DNA of 64,000 nucleotides, taken from positions 1 through 64,000 of the forward strand of contig NZ_JADMKU010000002.1 in assembly GCF_018219815.1 (NCBI RefSeq), written 5' to 3'. A program made the position numbers and the translations under genes. Positions 15,016 to 24,970 of the stretch are shown here, one piece after another. Positions within the stretch are counted from its first letter, which is position 1. The number at the start of each line of letters is the position of its first letter. Source of the stretch: Thalassovita aquimarina. Its GTDB lineage: Bacteria > Pseudomonadota > Alphaproteobacteria > Rhodobacterales > Rhodobacteraceae. The notes under the pieces are model-generated. The model was not told where the DNA came from. It saw only the letters and a program-made list of their open reading frames with translations, and searched no databases.

Positions 15016-15044
15016 TGATCCGTGTTTCACGGCGCCTCGTATTG
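15016..15044 (+). promoter_or_regulatory. Sigma-E type promoter of rpoE-chrR
   Basis: TGATCC (15016-15021), 17 bases, then GTATTG (15039-15044). The same -35, spacing and GTAT start of the -10 recur at three other promoters in the next 4 kb. TGATCC is the recalled -35 element of Rhodobacter sphaeroides sigma-E promoters, including the autoregulated rpoE promoter. Initiation would fall near 15051. Confidence 0.85.
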
Positions 15045-15124
15045 GGGTTATGTTGACACAGACCTTAGACAGCCTGCACCGAAAATCGCGTGTTCCACCG
15101 GTGCACCGTGACGAAAGCAAACTC

Positions 15125-15685
15125 GTGTTGCAAAGCAGAGCCGACATTTCGCAGCAGACCGTCTGGATGATCGCCGTCCGGGACAACCGGGACCGCACTG
15201 CATTTGCCGCGCTCTTTGATCATTTCGCACCGCGTCTCAAAGGTTTCATCATGCGTTCGGGCGCATCAGCCCATCAAGCGGAAGAAATAGTTCAGGACGT
15301 GATGCTGACGATATGGCGCAAGGCGGCGACGTTTGATCCGCACCGCGCACAGGTTTCTGCGTGGATTTATCAGATTGCCCGCAACCGCCAGATCGACATC
15401 GCACGCAAAGAAAACCGCCCGATGCCGGAAGAGCTGAAGGAAGAGGCGGGCACGGACATCGATGCCAGCCAGATCCTGGGCCTCGAACAGGAAGCGGGAC
15501 AATTGAAACAAGCCCTCGCCACGCTCAAGCCCGAGCAGCGAGAAATCATCGAGAAGGCCTATCTGGGCGAACTGACCCATCAGGAGATCAGCGCCCAGAC
15601 CGGCCTTCCGCTGGGAACCATAAAGTCGCGTATCAGGCTTGGCCTGGAACGCCTGAGACATGAGTTAAAGGACCTCAAGTCATGA
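15125..15685 (+). CDS. rpoE: ECF sigma factor RpoE (sigma-E, ChrR-controlled)
   Basis: The protein has sigma region 2 (FAALFDHFAPRLKGFIMRSG through VQDVMLTIWRKAATFDP) and region 4 (LTHQEISAQTGLPLGTIKSRIRLGLERLR). It matches the group of ECF factors held by ChrR-type zinc anti-sigmas, which activate genes against singlet oxygen. I prefer GTG 15125 (186 residues, preceded by GACGAAAG). The longer frame from ATG 15050 (211 residues) begins at the predicted transcription start, and its first 25 residues look unlike the family. It overlaps chrR by four bases (ATGA). Confidence 0.93.
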   Translation: MLQSRADISQQTVWMIAVRDNRDRTAFAALFDHFAPRLKGFIMRSGASAHQAEEIVQDVMLTIWRKAATFDPHRAQVSAWIYQIARNRQIDIARKENRPMPEELKEEAGTDIDASQILGLEQEAGQLKQALATLKPEQREIIEKAYLGELTHQEISAQTGLPLGTIKSRIRLGLERLRHELKDLKS

Positions 15686-16317
15686 GTGCCATAACCCACC
15701 ATACCCCCGACGCCATGTTGGCGGCCTATGCGGCGGGTAACCTTCCGTATGCCTTTGCCGTTGCCGTGGCCAGCCATGTGTCGCTTTGTGCGCAGTGCCG
15801 TGCGGCACTGGAAGCCCATCAGGCCGTCGGCGGCGCCGTTCTGGAAGAAACGGGTGCCGTCGCCGTATCGTCGACGCTTAAGGACAATATCCTTGCCCAG
15901 CTCGATGCTCCGTTCACGCCGGAACCGGTTTATGAACGGAACGGGATCTACCCCGGCCCGGTGATGGAGGCCCTGAAAGGCCGCGCACCGCGCTGGAAGA
16001 AACTGGGCATGGGCGTGCGACAGGACATCATGTCGGCGGATGCCAATGGTTCGGTGCGACTGCTTTATATACCGCCGGGGCAGGCGGTGCCCAATCACAG
16101 CCATAACGGGTTGGAATTGACGCTGGTCCTGCAGGGCAGCTTCAGCGACGAAACCGGGCGCTTCGGCGTTGGCGATCTGGAAATTGCCGACGAAGAACTG
16201 GAGCACACGCCGGTTGCCGACGAGGGAGAGGCCTGTATCTGCTTGGCGGTGACCGACGCGCGCCTGCGCTTTCGCGCGCTGGTGCCTCGGCTGTTGCAGC
16301 CGCTCTTCCGGATCTGA
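15682..16317 (+). CDS. chrR: Anti-sigma factor ChrR, zinc-binding cupin type
   Basis: The 211-residue protein has an N-terminal ZAS anti-sigma domain with HVSLCAQC (HxxxCxxC), which in this family binds zinc and clamps sigma-E. A C-terminal cupin domain contains NHSHNGLELTLVLQGSF, whose His/Glu residues form a second metal site. In R. sphaeroides the cupin domain is needed for release of sigma-E by singlet oxygen (established knowledge). ATGA overlap with rpoE implies translational coupling and matched stoichiometry. Confidence 0.95.
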   Translation: MSAITHHTPDAMLAAYAAGNLPYAFAVAVASHVSLCAQCRAALEAHQAVGGAVLEETGAVAVSSTLKDNILAQLDAPFTPEPVYERNGIYPGPVMEALKGRAPRWKKLGMGVRQDIMSADANGSVRLLYIPPGQAVPNHSHNGLELTLVLQGSFSDETGRFGVGDLEIADEELEHTPVADEGEACICLAVTDARLRFRALVPRLLQPLFRI

Positions 16318-16343
16318 GGCGCACCCATTTCAGGCAGGATTTT

Positions 16344-16373
16344 GAACCACCGATTTTCGGTGGTTCTTTTTTT
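16344..16373 (+). terminator. Intrinsic terminator of rpoE-chrR
   Basis: A 10-bp perfect stem GAACCACCGA/TCGGTGGTTC with loop TTT is followed directly by seven T residues, 26 bases after the chrR stop. Confidence 0.95.
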
Positions 16374-16408
16374 AATTCAATAAGTTAGACCACGAAACCG
16401 TGAGCTTG

Positions 16409-16437
16409 TGATCCACCCGGAGCGCGGCAGCGTATCC
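16409..16437 (+). promoter_or_regulatory. Sigma-E type promoter of the fasciclin gene
   Basis: TGATCC (16409-16414), 17 bases, GTATCC (16432-16437). The architecture is identical to the rpoE promoter. It lies between the chrR terminator and the fasciclin start, giving a leader of roughly 50 bases. Confidence 0.85.
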
Positions 16438-16496
16438 CTTGTACGATCATCAATTGAGACCGGGCGGAACATGCCCATCGACAAGGAGACCTTCGA

Positions 16497-17012
16497 ATGA
16501 AAACCGCTTTCAAAACCGCTGTTGCCGCCGTCGCGCTGAGCCTTACCACCGCCGCCGCCCAGGCCAACAACATCGTTGAAATCGCAGCAGGGGACAAACG
16601 CTTCTCGACACTCGTCGCCGCCGTTAAGGCCGCAGACCTCGCTGAAACCCTGTCCGGGCCGGGCCCGTTCACCGTCTACGCCCCGACGAACGATGCCTTC
16701 GCGGCACTGCCCGAGGGTACCGTGGCAACGCTGCTCCAGCCCGAAAACAAGGACCAGCTGACCAACGTGCTGCTATATCACGTCGATGACCGGAACCTGC
16801 CGTCAGACATGATCCCCGCCGGATCGAACTACTTCAAACCGATCTTGGCAAGCGAACGCCTGTGCATCACGGCAGGGGCGGACGGTGTGAAAATTGCCGA
16901 CGGCACCGGCCAGATGGCGAATGTGATCATCGCAGACATCAAGGCCGACAATGGCGTGATCCACGTGGTCGACAAGGTACTGCTGCCTGGCAAACGCCCT
17001 GCTTGCTCCTAA
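16497..17012 (+). CDS. Secreted fasciclin (FAS1) domain protein
   Basis: The 171-residue protein has a Sec signal peptide (MKTAFKTAVAAVALSLTTAAAQA) followed by one FAS1 domain. Its H1 motif is FTVYAPTNDAFAALPEGTV and its H2-like end is NGVIHVVDKVLLP. FAS1 domains are adhesion or surface-binding modules; bacterial singletons are periplasmic or extracellular with unclear function. AAGGAG lies nine bases before the ATG. The upstream sigma-E promoter and downstream terminator make it a monocistronic member of the stress regulon. Confidence 0.93.
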   Translation: MKTAFKTAVAAVALSLTTAAAQANNIVEIAAGDKRFSTLVAAVKAADLAETLSGPGPFTVYAPTNDAFAALPEGTVATLLQPENKDQLTNVLLYHVDDRNLPSDMIPAGSNYFKPILASERLCITAGADGVKIADGTGQMANVIIADIKADNGVIHVVDKVLLPGKRPACS

Positions 17013-17053
17013 CAACAGGTGCCTGTCAGAACCATCTGACACATAATACGTTT

Positions 17054-17095
17054 GGCCGGTGCGTTCATTTTCTGAACGCATCGGCCTTCGTTTTT
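17054..17095 (+). terminator. Intrinsic terminator of the fasciclin gene
   Basis: A 14-bp stem with one G-T pair (17054-17067 with 17073-17086), a five-base loop, and then TTCGTTTTT. The following 175 bases to the end of the SDR gene hold no supported gene. Confidence 0.92.
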
Positions 17096-17270
17096 CGTGC
17101 AACCTGCAACTCGGCCACCGAGCGCGCACAAGTTACTGCTGAAACATGAAGGCTTCGAAGGGAACTGGCGATCAGGCCCCGATCCACGTGGATGGGTTCA
17201 TGATGGTCCGGCTACTGTGTGGGCCGTCGATTGGACGGGATCGACCGCCTCCGGTTATCCCGCTGGCAGG

Positions 17271-17996
17271 TCATTTTCCGCGATAGGCGATGAAGTCAGG
17301 CAGGTATTCCAAGCTACGGATGAACCATGAAAATGGAGCCGGAAAATCGGTGCGAAAGCGACGTTTGCGCATGGCTTTCAGCACCTTTTCCGCGGCGTCC
17401 TCGGGTGTCATCAGCATCGGCATGCGAAAACTGTTTTTCGAAGTCAGGCGGGTCTTGATAAAGCCGGGATTGACCAGCCGTACCTTCACGCCGCTGCCCT
17501 TGAGATCAAAACGCATGGTTTCGGCCAGGCTGATCAGCGCGGCCTTGCTCGCCCCATAACCGATGGCGGCAGGCAGCCCGCGATACCCAGCCAGCGACCC
17601 AATCAACGTGATGTCGCCTTGTCCTTTTTCTACGAAACCTGGCACGATTTCACCAAGCACGCGCATCGCACCGGTGAAATTGACATCGCACATCGCCAGG
17701 GCCGTATCCCGATCCCACTCGGTGGCGCGCATCGGTTCATAGGATCCGACGTTGTATATAATGCCGTGCAGGTCGCCGGCCTCGGCTGCTGCCCGGCGCA
17801 CGGCGTCGTTATCGGTTACATCCAGCGGCAGAGCGCGCGCATGCTTCAATTCAGCGCTGAGGCTCTCGAGCCGTTCGGCATTGCGGGCCGAAAGGATCAG
17901 CCGCGCCCCTTCGGAACTCAGCTTCTGGGCCAAAGCGCGCCCCAACCCTTCACTGGCACCGATCAACCAAAATGTTTTGCCGGAAAAATCCGTCAT
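17271..17996 (-). CDS. Short-chain dehydrogenase/reductase of the sigma-E lipid cluster
   Basis: The 241-residue protein is a classical SDR. FWLIGASEGLGRALA is the NAD(P)-binding TGxxxGxG-like motif, YNVGS stands for NNAG, and the catalytic triad is visible as Ser in LIGSLAGYRG with YGASKAAL (YxxxK). The start at 17996 overlaps the stop of the DUF1365 gene by four bases (ATGA), so the two form an operon. An SDR is also in the R. sphaeroides sigma-E regulon next to lipid genes (recalled). Its substrate is unknown but may be a lipid-derived carbonyl. Confidence 0.92.
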   Translation of the reverse strand: MTDFSGKTFWLIGASEGLGRALAQKLSSEGARLILSARNAERLESLSAELKHARALPLDVTDNDAVRRAAAEAGDLHGIIYNVGSYEPMRATEWDRDTALAMCDVNFTGAMRVLGEIVPGFVEKGQGDITLIGSLAGYRGLPAAIGYGASKAALISLAETMRFDLKGSGVKVRLVNPGFIKTRLTSKNSFRMPMLMTPEDAAEKVLKAMRKRRFRTDFPAPFSWFIRSLEYLPDFIAYRGK

Positions 17997-18763
17997 TTTC
18001 CTGCACTGCCAAAGGTCTGGCTGTCCGACATCAAACTCTCGGGTTCGGGTTGTTTCTTCAAAAACGGCGCCCGTTTGAGGTAAAGGATGGCGGCCTGCCA
18101 ATGGATCAGGGCAAGAATCCGCAGCGCGCCCATCGGGCGTCGCAGCGCGGCCCACAACAATGAACGACTGGTTGCCGGGCGGCGGTTGCCGCGCAGAGTA
18201 GCCAGCACGCCTTGATCGCCATTCTCGAACGCAATGCGGATATCGATCCCGGTCTCATCCATGGCGAAGTTGAACCGGTATTGACCGGCAACCGTTTGAA
18301 ACGGCGACACGTGCATCAATTTTTCGGCGATCAGAACATCGCTTCTCCGGATCGGGCGAAAATCGTCATGCGCGCAGAAATAGCAGTGGCGGTGACCAAA
18401 GGTATTGTTCACCTCGGCCACAAAGGCGCGCGGCGCCCCATCGACCAGCGCGATCCAGAAACTGACCGGGTTAAAGTGAAACCACAGGAAACTAGGCTGG
18501 GTAAGCAACAGAAGCCGCGCGCCGTCCGTCTGGAAACCATGCTCTCTCAGAACCTCCTTGAACCACGCCGCGCCGCGGCCATCCCCCCGCGGCCCGCCAT
18601 GCCGGCGATCCCAAAGCGACCAAATATTGAAACGGTTGCGCGAGATCAGCCAGGGCTTCGTGGCGCCCAGGTCGGTCAGCACGTAATCTACGCCATAGCT
18701 GAAAGCGTTTTTCAGCGTGCCACGCCGGGCGTGATGGGTTCGAGCTTGAATGTGTTCCAGCAT
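17993..18763 (-). CDS. DUF1365 family protein
   Basis: The 256-residue protein carries DUF1365 signatures: an N-terminal HARRGTLKNAFSYGVDYVL, PSFLWFHFNPVSFW, VAEVNNTFGHRHCYF and EKLMHVSPF. The biochemical function is unknown. Homologues are constantly found beside COG2907 FAD oxidoreductases and Cfa-type methyltransferases, as here across the divergent promoter region. ATG 18763 (MLEHIQ) is the family-like start. The predicted sigma-E promoter places the transcript start only a base or two ahead of it, so the mRNA may be leaderless. Confidence 0.9.
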   Translation of the reverse strand: MLEHIQARTHHARRGTLKNAFSYGVDYVLTDLGATKPWLISRNRFNIWSLWDRRHGGPRGDGRGAAWFKEVLREHGFQTDGARLLLLTQPSFLWFHFNPVSFWIALVDGAPRAFVAEVNNTFGHRHCYFCAHDDFRPIRRSDVLIAEKLMHVSPFQTVAGQYRFNFAMDETGIDIRIAFENGDQGVLATLRGNRRPATSRSLLWAALRRPMGALRILALIHWQAAILYLKRAPFLKKQPEPESLMSDSQTFGSAGK

Positions 18764-18771
18764 GATAGGTC

Positions 18772-18800
18772 TGATACGCGCACGCGTGTCCTTTGGATCA
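18772..18800 (-). promoter_or_regulatory. Sigma-E type promoter of the DUF1365-SDR operon
   Basis: On the minus strand TGATCC (18800-18795), 17 bases, GTATCA (18777-18772). Initiation is expected about seven bases on, at the DUF1365 start codon. Confidence 0.8.
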
Positions 18801-18832
18801 CTTCCCGCATGGATTCTTTTTGCACGCGAATT

Positions 18833-18861
18833 TGATCCGAACCGCCGGACCTCACGTATCC
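18833..18861 (+). promoter_or_regulatory. Sigma-E type promoter of the lipid-modification operon
   Basis: TGATCC (18833-18838), 17 bases, GTATCC (18856-18861), 30 bases before the start of the FAD oxidoreductase gene. It is divergent from the DUF1365 promoter, with -35 boxes about 32 bases apart. Confidence 0.87.
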
Positions 18862-18891
18862 CCTTCATAACGGATACAAGACGAGGACAGT

Positions 18892-20235
18892 ATGTTCGAT
18901 CAAACTCAGGGCCCACGCAAGAAGATCGCCATCGTCGGAGGCGGCATCTCTGGGTTGTCCGCCGCCTATTATCTGGCGCCTCACCATGATGTCACCGTGT
19001 TTGAAGCCGCCCCAAAGCTGGGCGGTCATGCACGCACCGTGATGGCCGGCAAAAACGGGGATCAGCCGGTCGATACCGGCTTCATCGTCTTCAACTACGT
19101 CACCTATCCCTACCTGACCCGTCTTTTCCGCGACCTCGACGTGCCGGTGATCAAAAGCGAAATGAGCTTCGGCGCCAGCATCAATAACGGCCGGCTTGAA
19201 TATGGCCTCAGCAATCTGGGCGCCATCACCGCGCAGAAGGGCAACCTTCTGCGGCCGCAATTTTACAAGATGATCGCCGACATCATGCGTTTTGGCAAAA
19301 GCGCCGAGGCTGCGGCCAAGGACGACGACAAGACCATCGGCGAACTGGTCGACGAACTGAGGTTGGGGGATTGGTTCCGCAACAACTACCTGATGCCCAT
19401 GTGCGGCGCGATCTGGTCAACGCCGGTCGGCGAGGTGGACCAGTTCCCGGCAAGATCACTGGTGCAGTTCTTCCGCAACCACGCCCTTTTGGCCGGTGCG
19501 GGCCGCCATCAATGGTGGACGGTCAAGGGCGGCAGCATCGAATATGTTCGCAGACTGGAGACGGCTCTGATCGCGCGCGGCTGCACCATTCGCACCGGCA
19601 CCCCGGTTCATCATGCCCAGCGCGGCGCGTTTGCGGTCAGCATCAAAGCCGGCGAAGGTCCGTCCGAAACCTTCGACGAACTGATCCTGGCCTGCCACTC
19701 GGATCAGGCGCTGGCCATTTTGGGGGCTGATGCAACGGCGGCAGAATCCGAGGCCCTTGGCAGCATCCGCTATCAGCCCAACAAGGCCGTGCTGCATTGC
19801 GATCCCAGCCAGATGCCCAAGCGCAGATCCTGCTGGTCAAGCTGGGCCTATCGTTCGCAGGACGGTGCCATCGGCGTCACCTACTGGATGAACAAGCTTC
19901 AGAGCATCCCCGAAAGCGACCCGCTTTTCGTCACGCTGAACCCGTCCAGCGAAATCCGGCAAGAGGCGATCTATGATGCGGTCGAATTCGCCCACCCGGT
20001 CTTCGACAAGGCAGCGCTCAAGGCGCAGCGGGATATTCGCCAGATGCAGGGCCAAAACCGGACATGGTTTGCCGGGGCCTGGAACCGTCACGGTTTCCAC
20101 GAAGACGGCATTGCCAGCGCAATGCGCATTGTCCGCATGCTCACCGAAAGCAACCAATTCGAAGGAATGGAAAATGCGTTTGACCAACAAGGCCTTGAAA
20201 TCGAATTTCCTGTCGACCTGCGAGCGTCTGCGTGA
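18892..20235 (+). CDS. FAD-dependent oxidoreductase, COG2907/phytoene-desaturase-like
   Basis: The 447-residue protein opens with the FAD-binding KIAIVGGGISGLSAAYYL (GxGxxG) and a second flavin motif GGHARTV, typical of flavin amine oxidase/desaturase relatives. AGAWNRHGFHEDGIASA near the C-terminus is the matching FAD-site segment. In R. sphaeroides a homologous sigma-E target is linked to furan fatty acid synthesis as the acyl desaturase UfaD; equivalence is inferred. The gene follows a sigma-E promoter, has GAGGA before its ATG, and overlaps the next gene by 62 bases. Confidence 0.9.
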   Translation: MFDQTQGPRKKIAIVGGGISGLSAAYYLAPHHDVTVFEAAPKLGGHARTVMAGKNGDQPVDTGFIVFNYVTYPYLTRLFRDLDVPVIKSEMSFGASINNGRLEYGLSNLGAITAQKGNLLRPQFYKMIADIMRFGKSAEAAAKDDDKTIGELVDELRLGDWFRNNYLMPMCGAIWSTPVGEVDQFPARSLVQFFRNHALLAGAGRHQWWTVKGGSIEYVRRLETALIARGCTIRTGTPVHHAQRGAFAVSIKAGEGPSETFDELILACHSDQALAILGADATAAESEALGSIRYQPNKAVLHCDPSQMPKRRSCWSSWAYRSQDGAIGVTYWMNKLQSIPESDPLFVTLNPSSEIRQEAIYDAVEFAHPVFDKAALKAQRDIRQMQGQNRTWFAGAWNRHGFHEDGIASAMRIVRMLTESNQFEGMENAFDQQGLEIEFPVDLRASA

Positions 20236-21331
20236 AGGGCGACTGACGCTGCGCACGCCACAAGGCGAACGGTACAACTTCGGCACCTCGGGCCCCGAGG
20301 CCGAAATGGTCATTCGCGATTGGTCTGCGGTCTCGGCGATGGCGGCGCACGGCCAGGTGGGGCTTGGCGAAACTTACGTTCAAGGCCTGTGGGACACGCC
20401 CTCGATCGAGACGCTGATGACGTTGGCAATGCGCAATCGCGACCATTTCGGCGCCTACGATCAGGCCAGCCCGTTCAACCGGGCCAAGTTCCGTCTGGTA
20501 GACACCGTGATGCGGGCCAATTCGCGCCGTGGAGCCCGCAAGAACATCCGTTCGCACTATGATGTCGGCAATGAATTCTACGCGCTGTGGCTGGATGATG
20601 GGATGACCTATTCCTCGGGCCTGTTCGAGGGCGCCGACAACGACCTGTCGCGCGCGCAATCCCGTAAGAACGCGCGGGCCCTTTCGCGTTTGGGCGAAGG
20701 GGCACGCACGCTGGAAATCGGCTGTGGCTGGGGCGGGTTCGCCGAACACGCGGCACGGGAAGGCCGCGATGTGACTGGCGTAACCATTTCGCGCAATCAT
20801 CACAGCTATGCCGAATGCCGTCTTGATGGCCGCGCCGATATTCAGCTGCGCGACTATCGCGACGTGCACGGGCAATATGACAACATCGTTTCGATCGAAA
20901 TGATCGAAGCCGTCGGAGCACGCTACTGGCCAAGTTATTTTTCGGTGCTCAAACGAAACCTGGCCGAGGGCGGGCGCGTTCTGCTGCAGGCGATCACCGT
21001 CAAGGATAGCTTTTTCGACGTTTACAAGACCTCGTCGGACTACATTCGCCAATACGTCTTTCCGGGCGGCATGCTGCTGTCGGACAGCGTGTTCGAAAAT
21101 CAGGCCAAGGCGGCCGGTCTTCAGGTCCGCGAAAGTTTCGCCTTCGGGCAGGATTACGCCAAAACCTGCCGGATCTGGGCCGAACGCCTGAGCGCTCAAA
21201 AGCGCCGGATCAAAGACATGAGCTATGGCGAGGATTTCTTTCGCAACTGGCAATACTATCTCGAAATTTGCGCCGTTTCCTTTGCCGTCGGGCACACGAA
21301 TGTCGTCCAGGTGGAGCTGGCGCATGCGTAA
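20174..21331 (+). CDS. Cyclopropane-fatty-acid-synthase-type SAM methyltransferase
   Basis: The 385-residue protein has the Cfa core: IRSHYDVGNEFYALWLDDGMTYS, the SAM-binding LEIGCGWGGFAEHAA, and VSIEMIEAVGARYWP. Such enzymes methylate double bonds of membrane phospholipid acyl chains, either forming cyclopropanes or branched products that lead to furan fatty acids. I chose ATG 20174, preceded by GAAGGAATGG; the open frame continues upstream inside the FAD gene without homology. The N-terminal portion before about residue 130 is divergent. The stop overlaps the next start region, implying coupled translation. Confidence 0.92.
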   Translation: MRLTNKALKSNFLSTCERLREGRLTLRTPQGERYNFGTSGPEAEMVIRDWSAVSAMAAHGQVGLGETYVQGLWDTPSIETLMTLAMRNRDHFGAYDQASPFNRAKFRLVDTVMRANSRRGARKNIRSHYDVGNEFYALWLDDGMTYSSGLFEGADNDLSRAQSRKNARALSRLGEGARTLEIGCGWGGFAEHAAREGRDVTGVTISRNHHSYAECRLDGRADIQLRDYRDVHGQYDNIVSIEMIEAVGARYWPSYFSVLKRNLAEGGRVLLQAITVKDSFFDVYKTSSDYIRQYVFPGGMLLSDSVFENQAKAAGLQVRESFAFGQDYAKTCRIWAERLSAQKRRIKDMSYGEDFFRNWQYYLEICAVSFAVGHTNVVQVELAHA

Positions 21332-21818
21332 TATCGTTCTGTCATCCGCACTAATCCTCGCGCCTGTCTTTGCACAGGACTCCACGGTCGAAGCCGCGCT
21401 GCCCGATGCCGAATTGCGCGGCACCGCGACCTTTCGTTTTGTCGGGCTCCCGATTTATGAGGCGCGGCTGTTCACCGAAGCCGGCGCCCCGCTGGATTGG
21501 AACAAGGATTTCGGTCTCGAGCTGAAGTACCTGCGCAGTCTGTCCGAACGTGACCTCGTCGAAAGCACGATGCGCGAGTTCAAGCGCACAGGGGACGCGG
21601 TGCCGGTGCGTGATCAACTGGAACGTTGCTTCAATGACGTGCGCAAGGGCGATCGCTTTTTCGCCGTGTCCAAGGGCCAAAACCAGATCGGATTCTGGCA
21701 CAACGGAAAACGCGTCTGCACGCTCAGTCATCCGCAGATCAAAACCCGGTTCATGGCGATCTTTCTTGGGGAAAACACCCGTTCGAAGTCTTTCACCCGG
21801 AAACTTAAGGGCGAATGA
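21324..21818 (+). CDS. Exported chalcone-isomerase-like protein
   Basis: The 164-residue protein has a signal peptide (MRNIVLSSALILAPVFA-Q) and the CHI-like core LRGTATFRFVGLPIYEARLF with LKYLRSLSERDLVEST. Bacterial members are periplasmic and rarely catalytic. Plant relatives with this fold bind fatty acids, so a lipid-carrier role in this operon is a reasonable inference. ATG 21324 lies inside the last codons of the methyltransferase gene, with GGTGGAG before it. The end overlaps the transporter start by four bases. Confidence 0.85.
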   Translation: MRNIVLSSALILAPVFAQDSTVEAALPDAELRGTATFRFVGLPIYEARLFTEAGAPLDWNKDFGLELKYLRSLSERDLVESTMREFKRTGDAVPVRDQLERCFNDVRKGDRFFAVSKGQNQIGFWHNGKRVCTLSHPQIKTRFMAIFLGENTRSKSFTRKLKGE

Positions 21819-23044
21819 TGCTTTACCCGCGTGTCAGCCTCTATGCGCTGATGCTGGCTGCGGCCGGCATACCGCTCTATATCCATCTGCCGCGTTTCGC
21901 CTCGGTGAATCTCGGGATCGGGCTGGGCACGATCGGAACCATCCTCTTGGTGATCCGGCTGATTGACCTGGTGCAGGACCCGCTGATCGGCTGGGCGATT
22001 GACCGCTGGCCACGGGCTCAAAGCCTGTTTGCATCTGGCGCCGCCATCGGCTTGGCTATCGGTTTCCCCATGCTCTTCACCCCGCGGTCAGGCCCCTATG
22101 TGACGGCGCAACTTGTGGCGATCCTCGTGCTGCTGTTCTCGGCCTATAGCCTGGGCATGATCCTGCTCTACGGGCGCAGCGCAACCCTTGCCCGAACGCT
22201 GACGCCAGATGCGCTGATGACGCTTGCCGCCTTTCGCGAGGGCGGCATGTTGACAGGCGTTGTGATCGCCGCCATCGCCCCGGCCGTGTTTGTCGCTCTG
22301 GGGGCCGGGGCGCAAGGCTATCCCGCCTTCGGTCTCTTCCTCGGAGCGCTTGCCTTAACCGCGGCCGTCATCTCCATGCCGATCTGGCGCCGCCCGCCCA
22401 TATTGGGGGAACGGCTGTCGCTGGCGGGCCTCGGTCAGGCGGGGGCGCTCCGGCTTTTGGCACTGGCGCTGGTCAACAGCCTGCCCGTTGCCATCACATC
22501 AACCCTGTTCCTGTTCTTCGTCGAAGACCGCCTGCAACTGCCGGGCAAGGCCGGTCCTCTGCTGATCCTCTTCTTCCTCAGCGCCGGTTTGAGCGTACCG
22601 CTCTGGGCGCGGATGAGCCGGCGGGCGGGGCCGAAAACCACGCTGTTGATCGCGATGCCGCTGGCCGTTCTGGGTTTCGTCGGCGCGGCGTTTCTCGCGC
22701 CAGGCAACATGGCGGGATTCGCCCTGGTTTGCCTGGCTTCGGGTTCGGCACTCGGGGCCGACATGGTGATTCTGCCCGCGATGTTCTCCGTTGCGCTAAC
22801 AAAGGCCGGCCTCAAGGCATCGCTGGCCTTCGGCATCTGGTCATTTGCCGGAAAACTCGGTCTGGCGCTTGCCGCCTTTGCGGTTCTCCCGGTGCTGGAG
22901 CGCAGCGGCTTCACCCCCGGCGTACCGAACAGCGCCGAGGCGCTCACAACATTGAACATATCCTACGCCGTCATTCCCTGCATATTGAAACTCGGCGCAT
23001 TGGCCCTCGTCCTTGCGCTTCCCACAGAGGACACAAACTCATGA
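21815..23044 (+). CDS. MFS transporter, GPH (MelB-like) type
   Basis: The 409-residue protein has about twelve hydrophobic segments. The motif VIRLIDLVQDPLIGWAIDRW near residues 45-65 is typical of glycoside-pentoside-hexuronide family symporters, and it recurs in weaker form in the second half (ARMSRRAGPKTTLL). Substrate cannot be read from the sequence. In this context a lipid, lysolipid or oxidised product is more likely than a sugar. ATGA overlaps on both sides tie it to the operon. A homologous MFS protein occurs in the R. sphaeroides sigma-E operon (recalled). Confidence 0.88.
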   Translation: MMLYPRVSLYALMLAAAGIPLYIHLPRFASVNLGIGLGTIGTILLVIRLIDLVQDPLIGWAIDRWPRAQSLFASGAAIGLAIGFPMLFTPRSGPYVTAQLVAILVLLFSAYSLGMILLYGRSATLARTLTPDALMTLAAFREGGMLTGVVIAAIAPAVFVALGAGAQGYPAFGLFLGALALTAAVISMPIWRRPPILGERLSLAGLGQAGALRLLALALVNSLPVAITSTLFLFFVEDRLQLPGKAGPLLILFFLSAGLSVPLWARMSRRAGPKTTLLIAMPLAVLGFVGAAFLAPGNMAGFALVCLASGSALGADMVILPAMFSVALTKAGLKASLAFGIWSFAGKLGLALAAFAVLPVLERSGFTPGVPNSAEALTTLNISYAVIPCILKLGALALVLALPTEDTNS

Positions 23045-23601
23045 AACTCCTCGCTGCCCTGCTCTTTCTCATCGTTCTGGCCATGATCGCCAAGAACATG
23101 TTGTTCAGCTTTCGCGCCCAAAGCCCTGCGGATTATGCCGACACCGGCCCGGCCTTTTCGCTCAAGACGCATCTCTCGGGCGAGATCCTGTCCGAAGGAC
23201 TGATCTATGGGCCGAATGGCAAGATGACCAACAGCTTTGTCGCCCGAATGGTCGGGGAATGGGATGACGACACCGGCACGCTGTCCGAAGAATTCACCTA
23301 TTCCAACGGCAAGCAACAAAGCCGGAAATGGTTTCTGAAACTCGAAGATAGCAATACCTTCACCGCCACGGCCGATGATATCGTCGGCGAAGCGCGCGGC
23401 GTCATCTCCGGTTCGACCATCAAGATGGAATACAAGATCGTATTGCCAGAGGACACGGGCGGTCACACCCTGACGGCCACCGATTGGCTCTACCTCACGG
23501 AAAACGGCGTTATCATGAACAAATCCGAGATGCGCAAATTCGGCGTCAAGGTGGCCGAGCTTGTCGCAACGATACGTCCGGCGCCGGACACGCAGCGCTG
23601 A
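23041..23601 (+). CDS. DUF3833 family protein, membrane-anchored
   Basis: The 186-residue protein starts with an uncleaved-looking hydrophobic anchor (LLAALLFLIVLAMIAKNMLF). The DUF3833 beta-rich domain follows, with HLSGEILSEGLIYGPNGKM, GTLSEEFTYSNGKQQSRKW and TDWLYLTENGVIMNKSEM. The family has a lipocalin-like appearance and no known function. Start and stop follow the ATGA overlap with the transporter. A second, lipoprotein-type DUF3833 gene ends the operon. Confidence 0.9.
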   Translation: MKLLAALLFLIVLAMIAKNMLFSFRAQSPADYADTGPAFSLKTHLSGEILSEGLIYGPNGKMTNSFVARMVGEWDDDTGTLSEEFTYSNGKQQSRKWFLKLEDSNTFTATADDIVGEARGVISGSTIKMEYKIVLPEDTGGHTLTATDWLYLTENGVIMNKSEMRKFGVKVAELVATIRPAPDTQR

Positions 23602-23634
23602 ACACCTCTCGGCTGAGGACAAGGAACGCCTGAC

Positions 23635-24372
23635 ATGATGCAACGGAAATCACCCATTCTCGCGGCTGCGGTTGCGCTGGCTTCAATCGCGTTTGCCCTC
23701 TCTCCGCTCCTCACCCGGGATTTCGCGGGCTACAGGCCCGAGCAGTTTCCCGTATTCTTGGATTTCTGGCCGGTTCAGCCGGCAGGCTGGGCCTTCGGCA
23801 TCTGGGGCGTGATCTACATCTGGCTGATCCTCGGGGCGCTCTGGGGTCTTTTGAATGCGCCACATGATCCGCAGTGGCAAAACATGCGCGGCCCGCTGCT
23901 GGTGAGCCTCGGCATCGGCACCTTCTGGATTGCCGCGGCCAATACTTCGCCCATTCTGGCAACAGTCGTGATATTCGCAATGGCAGCCCTTGCGATCGCC
24001 GCAATGCTGCGCGCCGGGTCCGACACGCCGGTTTGGCAGGCCCGCCCGGTGGCGCTGTATGCCGGTTGGCTGACGGCGGCGACAGGGGTCGGCACCGGTG
24101 TGGTTCTTGGCGGATATGGCGTGCTAACCGCTCAGTCCGCTGCATTGACAATGCTCGCCGCCGTGTTGGTCGCCGCGATGATCGTGCAGTCCTTTCGCCC
24201 GGCAGAATGGGCCTATCCGCTTGCCGTCATGTGGGCTCTTGCCGGGGTGATCGCGGCAAACCTGCCTGCGGGAAACTGGGCCGTGATCGGGCTGTCCGCG
24301 ATCGGCATCCTGGCGCTCGCACTGGGCTACCTGCTGCGCAGGCGACCAAGGCCGGCGCGCCTGACCGAATAG
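23635..24372 (+). CDS. TspO/tryptophan-rich sensory-type membrane protein
   Basis: The 245-residue polytopic protein contains PVQPAGWAFGIWGVIYIWLILGA, which resembles the first helices of TspO/MBR-family proteins, and further Trp-rich membrane helices. It is longer than classical TspO (about 160 residues), so it belongs to an extended branch. TspO proteins bind porphyrins and are tied to oxygen and photo-oxidative stress, which would suit a sigma-E operon. AAGGAACG precedes ATG 23635, and 33 bases separate it from the DUF3833 gene. Confidence 0.75.
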   Translation: MMQRKSPILAAAVALASIAFALSPLLTRDFAGYRPEQFPVFLDFWPVQPAGWAFGIWGVIYIWLILGALWGLLNAPHDPQWQNMRGPLLVSLGIGTFWIAAANTSPILATVVIFAMAALAIAAMLRAGSDTPVWQARPVALYAGWLTAATGVGTGVVLGGYGVLTAQSAALTMLAAVLVAAMIVQSFRPAEWAYPLAVMWALAGVIAANLPAGNWAVIGLSAIGILALALGYLLRRRPRPARLTE

Positions 24373-24427
24373 CGCCGCGGGACCGCCAACAGGTCCGATC
24401 CGGCAATGATCCGAACCGTGAAACGAG

Positions 24428-24970
24428 ATGAAAAGGAACAGGAACAGGAACAAAGCCTTTGCTTTCTTGGTCATCACCGCGCTGACAGCCTGTTCCGGCC
24501 CCCCGGATCTGGGGGACAAACCCCTTTCAGATCGTACACTCAACCTTGAGGAATTCTTTGAGGGCAAATCGGTGGCCCACGGTCAGTTCCAGGATGTGTT
24601 CGGCAACGTCCAACGCCGGTTCGATGTCCAGATCGCCGGCACTTGGGATGGCCGCATTCTGAAACTGGTCGAAGATTTCACGTATGATGATGGCGAAACC
24701 GAGCAGCGCATCTGGACCCTTGAAAAAACCGGTAAAGACACTTGGAAGGGCACCGCGCCCGGTGTGATTGGCAAAGCCACCGGTCAGGAGAACGGCGACA
24801 CGTTCAACTGGACCTATCGTATCGACCTGCCGGTGCGCAAAGGTACGATGCGCGTCGATTTCGATGATTGGATGTGGCTACTGGCCGACGACCGGTTGTT
24901 GAACCGAGCCTATGTTTCGCGGTTTGGCATCCGCATCGGAGAGGCGATAGTCGTCTTTGAAAAGAAATGA
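24428..24970 (+). CDS. DUF3833 family lipoprotein
   Basis: The 180-residue protein has a lipoprotein signal with lipobox LTAC (Cys near residue 22). The DUF3833 domain follows (LEEFFEGKSVAHGQFQDVFG, LKLVEDFTYDDGETEQRIW, DDWMWLLADDRLLNRAYVS). It is a paralogue of the operon's other DUF3833 protein but is anchored by lipid. It is the last gene of the cluster, 55 bases after the TspO-like gene. A lone TGATCC upstream (about 24408) lacks a matching -10, so operon read-through is the likely source of expression. Confidence 0.9.
   Translation: MKRNRNRNKAFAFLVITALTACSGPPDLGDKPLSDRTLNLEEFFEGKSVAHGQFQDVFGNVQRRFDVQIAGTWDGRILKLVEDFTYDDGETEQRIWTLEKTGKDTWKGTAPGVIGKATGQENGDTFNWTYRIDLPVRKGTMRVDFDDWMWLLADDRLLNRAYVSRFGIRIGEAIVVFEKK

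Follow-up and report, generated by a model that had tools for sequence, protein, structure and literature searches.

We examined a stretch of 64,000 nucleotides (nt) of Thalassovita aquimarina DNA (contig NZ_JADMKU010000002.1, positions 1 to 64,000; hereafter the window), in which the genes for a sigma factor, RpoE, and a zinc anti-sigma factor, ChrR, open an island at positions 15,016 to 24,970. An earlier note, made from the sequence alone, had called this island a self-contained sigma-E regulon. We are highly confident that it is a photo-oxidative stress regulon of the RpoE-ChrR type, belonging to group 11 of the extracytoplasmic function (ECF) sigma factors (ECF11), with the regulator and the core effectors side by side. 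Its features are given below by window coordinates and strand.

15016..15042, + strand: sigma-E promoter of rpoE-chrR, TGATCC-N16-CGTAT (exact match)
15050..15685, + strand: rpoE, ECF sigma factor (ATG 8 nt past CGTA; PDB 2q1z_A)
15682..16317, + strand: chrR, zinc anti-sigma factor with cupin-like domain (TIGR02451, PDB 2z2s_B)
16344..16373, + strand: terminator-like hairpin with 9-bp stem and T run, between chrR and the fasciclin gene (read directly, no program score)
16390..16403, no strand: operator-like dyad CCACGAAACCGTGA ahead of the fasciclin promoter (TCAC-N6-GTGA conservation)
16409..16435, + strand: sigma-E promoter of the fasciclin gene (exact match)
16497..17012, + strand: fasciclin-domain protein (PF02469, E 3.1e-31; signal-peptide-like N-terminus, by eye)
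17271..17996, − strand: short-chain dehydrogenase/reductase (SDR), RSP_1087 type by family (PF00106, E 1.4e-39)
17993..18763, − strand: ufaO-type DUF1365 protein, 4-bp overlap with the SDR gene (PF07103, E 1.3e-62)
18774..18800, − strand: sigma-E promoter of the ufaO-SDR operon (exact match)
18833..18859, + strand: sigma-E promoter of the ufaD operon (exact match)
18892..20235, + strand: ufaD-type flavin adenine dinucleotide (FAD) oxidoreductase (PF01593, E 1.7e-20)
20174..21331, + strand: ufaM-type cyclopropane-synthase-like methyltransferase (PF02353, E 7.9e-74; start codon chosen by hand)
21324..21818, + strand: chalcone-isomerase-fold protein with N-terminal hydrophobic helix (PF16036, 24.1 bits, below the cut-off of 27)
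21815..23044, + strand: MFS_2 transporter, RSP_1089 type by family (PF13347, E 4.8e-39)
23032..23601, + strand: DUF3833 protein, first copy (PF12915, E 1.4e-53)
23635..24372, + strand: multi-helix membrane-type protein with no site of its own (model with a predicted local distance difference test score, pLDDT, of 89)
24428..24970, + strand: DUF3833 protein, second copy, with no site of its own (PF12915, E 4.5e-57)

The regulator pair and its promoters

RpoE and ChrR each match one chain of the solved Rhodobacter sphaeroides complex (2q1z/2z2s). The best structural match of RpoE is 2q1z_A (E 2.1e-56 over the core, with the next best at 5.7e-22), and that of ChrR is 2z2s_B (E 9.2e-62). ChrR scores 205.9 bits against the TIGR02451 cut-off of 124.5 and is likewise above the cut-off of PF12973. 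PMC6852236 names eight zinc-ligand positions; in the alignment to 2z2s_B, ChrR fills them with H7, H32, C36, C39, H139, H141, E145, and H175, and none of 12 aligned sequences differs there. The ChrR cupin family has one match in this genome, and of 198 genomes from the family, 161 have a ChrR relative (E 1e-10 or better). The earlier note had read a sigma-E pair of the ChrR type here, with a single kind of promoter ahead of rpoE-chrR, the fasciclin gene, and two divergent operons, and this reading stands.

That note had also placed TGATCC-N17-GTAT ahead of rpoE, the fasciclin gene, the DUF1365-SDR operon, and the FAD-oxidoreductase operon. All four sites are exact, and they are the four matches in the window, where 0.04 would be expected (0 of 100 shuffles reached four). 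In fact, all of them read TGATCC-N16-CGTAT, with CGTA lying 8, 62, 11, and 33 nt from the start codons of rpoE, the fasciclin gene, the DUF1365 gene, and the FAD-oxidoreductase gene, respectively. The genome-wide scan that had been suggested returned six TGATCC-N17-GTAT matches in 4.33 Mb, four within the island and two antisense in long open frames (568 and 667 codons), both reaching the end of the fetched stretch. For TGATCC-N16-CGTA there are seven matches, the same four and three within frames scoring as coding. This consensus is published for the ECF11 group (PMC5507510), is matched by Shewanella promoters (PMC4336711), and is given as TGATCC(N15)GCGTA in PMC5036791.

Spacer length was used as a control. 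Adding one base to the spacer gave four matches in this genome and none in the island. Across 80 related loci (the best 80 of 586 confirmed loci, close relatives only, 1.53 Mb in total), we found 209 TGATCC-N16-CGTA sites, and spacers of N14, N15, N17, and N18 gave 1, 2, 3, and 3 sites, respectively. A reversed-pattern control in this genome (7 versus 0 matches) is an unfair comparison because the pattern contains CTAG. This tetranucleotide is rare in many bacteria. We therefore set the reversed pattern aside and relied on the spacer controls. In the family at large, at least one exact site is present in 145 of 149 genomes, in a search whose control was biased.

The sites are also conserved in position. 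In this tally, we tolerated up to one mismatch in the −35 element and accepted CGTA or GGTA as the −10 element; counts out of 81 or 57 loci include the window itself. The rpoE site is present in 78 of 81 loci and absent from three. The ufaD site is present in 76 of 77 loci overall and in 56 of the 57 loci that share the order of the window (type A: ufaO-SDR and ufaD divergent, downstream of chrR), and the ufaO site in 57 of 57 type-A loci.

Two of these promoters lie close to their genes. The first ATG falls exactly 8 nt past CGTA in 75 of 78 rpoE upstream regions, an ATG at this distance starts a reading frame that continues into the sigma core in 77 of 78 rpoE loci, and the ufaO start codon lies 8 or 11 nt past CGTA in 52 of 57 loci. 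The codon-position signal of the rpoE N-terminal stretch is weak (differences of 24591, 21909, and 29918 at positions 1, 2, and 3). Transcription usually starts a few bases past the −10 element. Because the start codons lie 8–11 nt past CGTA and transcription would begin at this usual distance, the rpoE and ufaO mRNAs are probably leaderless. The window spans that contain these short leaders are 15038-15052 for rpoE and 18761-18778 for ufaO. Separately, the second rpoE-chrR pair of one genome (G100; locus L205) has two TGATCC-N16-CGTA sites and no ufa match in the fetched 20 kb.

The SDR, RSP_1088-type, UfaO, UfaD, and UfaM families are all encoded under this promoter type, and the UfaM, UfaD, and UfaO families (PF02353, PF01593, PF07103) occur together in the island. 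The ufaO-type gene is the sole PF07103 (DUF1365) match in the genome. We infer from its size and operon place that RSP_1088 is a DUF3833 protein. By profile match, the enzyme families of the island act on membrane lipids, in agreement with the membrane link proposed earlier. From ufaD through the first DUF3833 gene, consecutive frames overlap, given the starts as placed here. The last two genes, encoding the membrane-type protein and the second DUF3833 protein, are set off by gaps of 33 and 55 bases, lack a sigma-E-type promoter, and are assigned to the regulon only by position. The proposed count of about ten targets in a 10-kb island is right in that ten genes lie past rpoE-chrR, and less firm in that the last two have no site of their own.

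Structure models were compared for two of the proteins. The model of the chalcone-isomerase-fold protein resembles both chalcone isomerases and AtFAP1, a fatty-acid-binding protein of plants (E 1e-7 to 1e-6), and in view of this fold a lipid-handling role beside UfaM would suit it. For the membrane-type protein at 23635, there was no Pfam match to E 0.001 and weak chance matches only up to E 10, and the best PDB fold match of its model has an E-value of 0.98. We rejected TspO as its identity, as there was no such Pfam match even at E 10 and no fold match. A homologue is present in 20 of the 80 related loci, in both of the arrangements described below.

Given the hairpin between chrR and the fasciclin gene, the latter probably forms a transcription unit of its own. 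Directly upstream of the fasciclin −35 element, TCAC-N6-GTGA is exact in 20 of 27 loci and present as a CCAC variant in two more, including the window. At the other promoters it occurs in 2 of 78 (rpoE), 1 of 59 (ufaO), and 1 of 76 (ufaD) cases. The fasciclin promoter itself is exact in 10 of the 27 loci, has one mismatch in 11 and two in 5, and is missed in 1. The non-exact promoters have degenerate −35 hexamers at unchanged spacing, except in L087, where an exact hexamer is paired with a spacer one base shorter. Past the fasciclin −10 element, at 16431-16450, a CGTA-TCCCTTGTACGA-like string is kept across many loci.

The description of the island as self-contained did not hold, as rpoHII on another contig carries a conserved site with one mismatch. 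This site, TGATCT-N16-CGTAT, lies 67 nt before the start codon (L081, C55:97471-97496). The sigma-32 gene in question passes the NCBIfam PRK07500 cut-off (438 versus 315 bits), and we call it rpoHII, as a prediction, from this match and its R. sphaeroides counterpart. The rpoHII gene was found in 46 of 61 genomes, and among the best 30 loci examined, this genome included, the site has at most one mismatch in 28 (19 exact), two mismatches in 1, and is absent in 1. A genome-wide search for TGATC-N17-CGTA gave 26 matches, 4 of them in the island; of the other 22, only the rpoHII site combines a suitable position with demonstrated conservation. A TGATCG-N16-CGTA site about 126 nt before ccmE, with a murI-like gene on its other side (L066, C11:513479-513504), is a further candidate outside target. 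Five more matches (L058, L065, L068, L075, and L077) lie outside coding-scoring frames and more than 150 bp from any gene start, and small RNAs may be encoded there. Allowing TGAACC, TGAACT, or TGATCT gave 17 matches and seven added places, none convincing, in a one-mismatch scan that was not exhaustive. A photolyase gene under this promoter was not found: the one PF03441 gene in the genome has no site within 300 bp upstream.

Two arrangements among related loci

The same arrangement as in the window recurs in 56 of the 80 related loci, among them L087 of Ruegeria pomeroyi and L084 of Lentibacter algarum, and the island is therefore not special to this genome. In 20 others (type B), ufaD lies upstream of rpoE and divergent from it, so that a ufaD gene adjoins rpoE-chrR in 76 of 80 loci. 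The remaining four could not be typed by arrangement and were omitted from the comparison. Gene content varies among the 56 type-A loci, some of which lie on short contigs: the fasciclin gene is found in 22, ufaM in 50, the chalcone-isomerase-like gene in 45, the MFS transporter and the first DUF3833 gene in 54 each, the membrane protein in 11, and the second DUF3833 gene in 10. In type B, ufaO stands behind ufaD, and 18 of 19 loci have no ufaO site of its own. The promoter pattern is kept in both arrangements.

The effector proteins differ more between the arrangements than the regulators do. At a ChrR identity of 62-70%, the median RpoE identity is 76% between A and B versus 74% within A. 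The corresponding medians are 61% versus 71% for UfaD, 60% versus 77% for UfaM, 49% versus 65% for UfaO, and 41% versus 66% for the SDR. In trees that were listed in part, UfaO falls into two fully supported clades and ChrR shows no clean split; type B is not one clean ChrR clade, and one type-A sequence (L105) lies among type-B sequences with weak support. Of 20 fetched regions, hand-picked from the list of ChrR relatives and not a random sample, 14 have an order like that of R. sphaeroides (ufaD-ufaO-mfs-DUF3833-SDR, divergent from rpoE). Of the other six, four have other orders or lack genes, one is type A, and one has no ufa genes.

The divergence between A and B could reflect either exchange of operons under a retained regulator or an ancient duplication followed by differential loss. 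We tentatively propose one RpoE-ChrR lineage with interchangeable effector operons, together with leaderless rpoE and ufaO mRNAs and a second regulator of the fasciclin gene; this combined proposal may well be right, although we stop short of favoring it. Among the titles and abstract openings returned by searches of the open-access literature, none described the A/B split, leaderless rpoE, or the fasciclin dyad. One locus in this collection, L123, is on a contig labelled Nocardioides marinus DP1N28-1 and has a Leisingera-like island that groups in these trees with Leisingera daeponensis DP1N14-2; the assembly is probably mislabelled or mixed.

Known systems and alternative explanations

The closest known system is that of R. 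sphaeroides, where RpoE (RSP_1092) and ChrR (RSP_1093) form the same kind of pair, with the same promoter consensus and a target operon adjoining rpoE-chrR. RSP_1087-1091, including RSP_1090 and RSP_1091, lie directly upstream of rpoE-chrR there, in an order common to many Rhodobacteraceae (PMC7074977). The core sigma-E regulon comprises about eight genes, and the furan-lipid genes are needed for ChrR turnover (PMC6852236); its members are rpoE, chrR, RSP_1087, 1088, 1090, 1091, phr, and cfaS. UfaM (RSP2144), UfaD (RSP1091), and UfaO (RSP1090, with DUF1365) make up the methylated furan fatty acid pathway (PMC7380195). RSP_1409, a fasciclin protein, and rpoHII are among the RpoE targets (PMC7074977). 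The island shares with RSP_1087-1091 the gene kinds UfaD, UfaO, GPH/MFS transporter, and SDR, and the fasciclin gene and rpoHII are predicted targets here too. The contrast drawn earlier with scattered targets in R. sphaeroides is only partly correct, since ufaM (RSP2144) and the fasciclin gene (RSP_1409) have distant locus numbers, whereas RSP_1087-1091 adjoins rpoE-chrR.

Unlike in R. sphaeroides, the targets in the window lie downstream of chrR in two divergent operons, with ufaM and the fasciclin gene inside the island, and the window adds the chalcone-isomerase-fold protein, the membrane protein, and a second DUF3833 gene. Type-B and R. sphaeroides-like relatives have the same regulator kind and promoters, with the ufaD operon divergent upstream of rpoE; the type-B effector proteins are deeply diverged from those of the window's arrangement, with median identities of 49% for UfaO and 41% for the SDR. 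Pseudomonas syringae DC3000 has a like RpoE-ChrR-like pair (PSPTO_1043/1042) and a phrB-cfa locus (PSPTO_1121-1114) with TGATCC-N16-CGTA, and, as here, this locus holds SDR, amine oxidase, RSP_1090-type, and cfa genes together; however, it is separate from the regulator locus and is headed by phrB (PMC5507510). In Azospirillum brasilense, which we liken by description, a fasciclin gene is under RpoE-ChrR (Dubey 2021, as cited in PMC10949492).

Several observations weigh against a photo-oxidative regulon at this locus. The fasciclin −35 element is exact in only 10 of 27 loci. The phrA- and folE2-family genes, listed members of the regulon in R. sphaeroides, are present here but lack such a site in the 300 bp upstream. 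No match to PF00124 (reaction centre) was found in the genome, in a search whose control was positive in 1 of 14 known genomes, Synechococcus. Singlet oxygen would then need a source other than that kind of photosystem. Light together with endogenous porphyrins or flavins can make singlet oxygen, which counts against an alternative in which the regulator is of the ECF11 kind and its main signal is organic peroxides or other membrane stress. We consider this alternative unlikely, although it is the most serious of those weighed here. Besides the missing PF00124 match, it draws on reports that organic hydroperoxides likewise activate the pairs of R. sphaeroides, Caulobacter, and P. syringae (PMC6852236, PMC5507510) and that a ChrR pair acts in the oxidative stress of Shewanella, a non-phototroph (PMC4336711). 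However, ChrR retains all eight zinc-ligand positions across its two domains, and in R. sphaeroides the singlet-oxygen response requires the C-terminal, cupin-like domain (PMC6852236).

Further ECF sigma factors are likely given the genome size, and one of them could be served by the four sites, or the sites could be a chance cluster; we regard this as extremely improbable. The shuffles and the spacer controls (window, genome, and related loci) argue against a chance cluster, with 0.04 sites expected in the window and a drop from 209 to 1-3 in the related loci. The sites also hold position across loci, their consensus is that of the ECF11 group, and the genome has a single match to the ChrR cupin family. 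An island that was recently assembled, mobile, or self-contained, and peculiar to this lineage, is likewise quite improbable. In its favor, the window's flanking genes leuC, mscS, rsfS, and gpmI have no tblastn match in the fetched flanks of the 80 related loci (up to 10 kb per side, some shorter), so that the chromosomal place is not conserved, and the G+C content is slightly low (59.8% versus 62.2% for the window). Conversely, the arrangement recurs in related loci, rpoHII bears the promoter outside the island, the sole tRNA of the window lies 14 kb away, and no integrase or transposase was found among 14 window proteins scanned, the rest of the window being unscanned for them.

The predicted circuit and its implications

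In the circuit predicted for the ECF11 regulon, ChrR, with its zinc anti-sigma and cupin-like domains, would hold RpoE at rest. Singlet oxygen or organic peroxides would lead to loss of ChrR, as is established in R. sphaeroides. Freed RpoE would then transcribe rpoE-chrR, the fasciclin gene, ufaO-SDR, and ufaD-ufaM-chi-mfs-DUF3833 from TGATCC-N16-CGTAT, and may pass the response on by transcribing rpoHII elsewhere in the genome. Judging from family membership, UfaM, UfaD, and UfaO would make methylated furan fatty acids from vaccenoyl chains in the membrane phospholipids. Because ChrR turnover under singlet oxygen depends on furan fatty acids in R. sphaeroides, a feedback loop would be contained inside the island, if the same family assignments hold.

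The circuit, the promoter, and nearly all of the gene families are already known, and the island is a typical, well-preserved case that carries a few additional genes. What is new amounts to small observations: diverged effector versions beside one regulator lineage, the probable leaderless rpoE mRNA, and the fasciclin dyad. The photo-oxidative circuit of R. sphaeroides appears to be kept, as a compact unit, in a genome without a reaction-centre gene match. The chalcone-isomerase-fold, membrane, and DUF3833 proteins are candidates for handling or moving furan lipids. If the proposal of interchangeable operons is true, the sigma-E promoter would act as a portable socket into which entire furan-lipid operons fit, and their lipid products might differ. 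The diverged effector versions found beside one regulator make their lipid products worth comparing.

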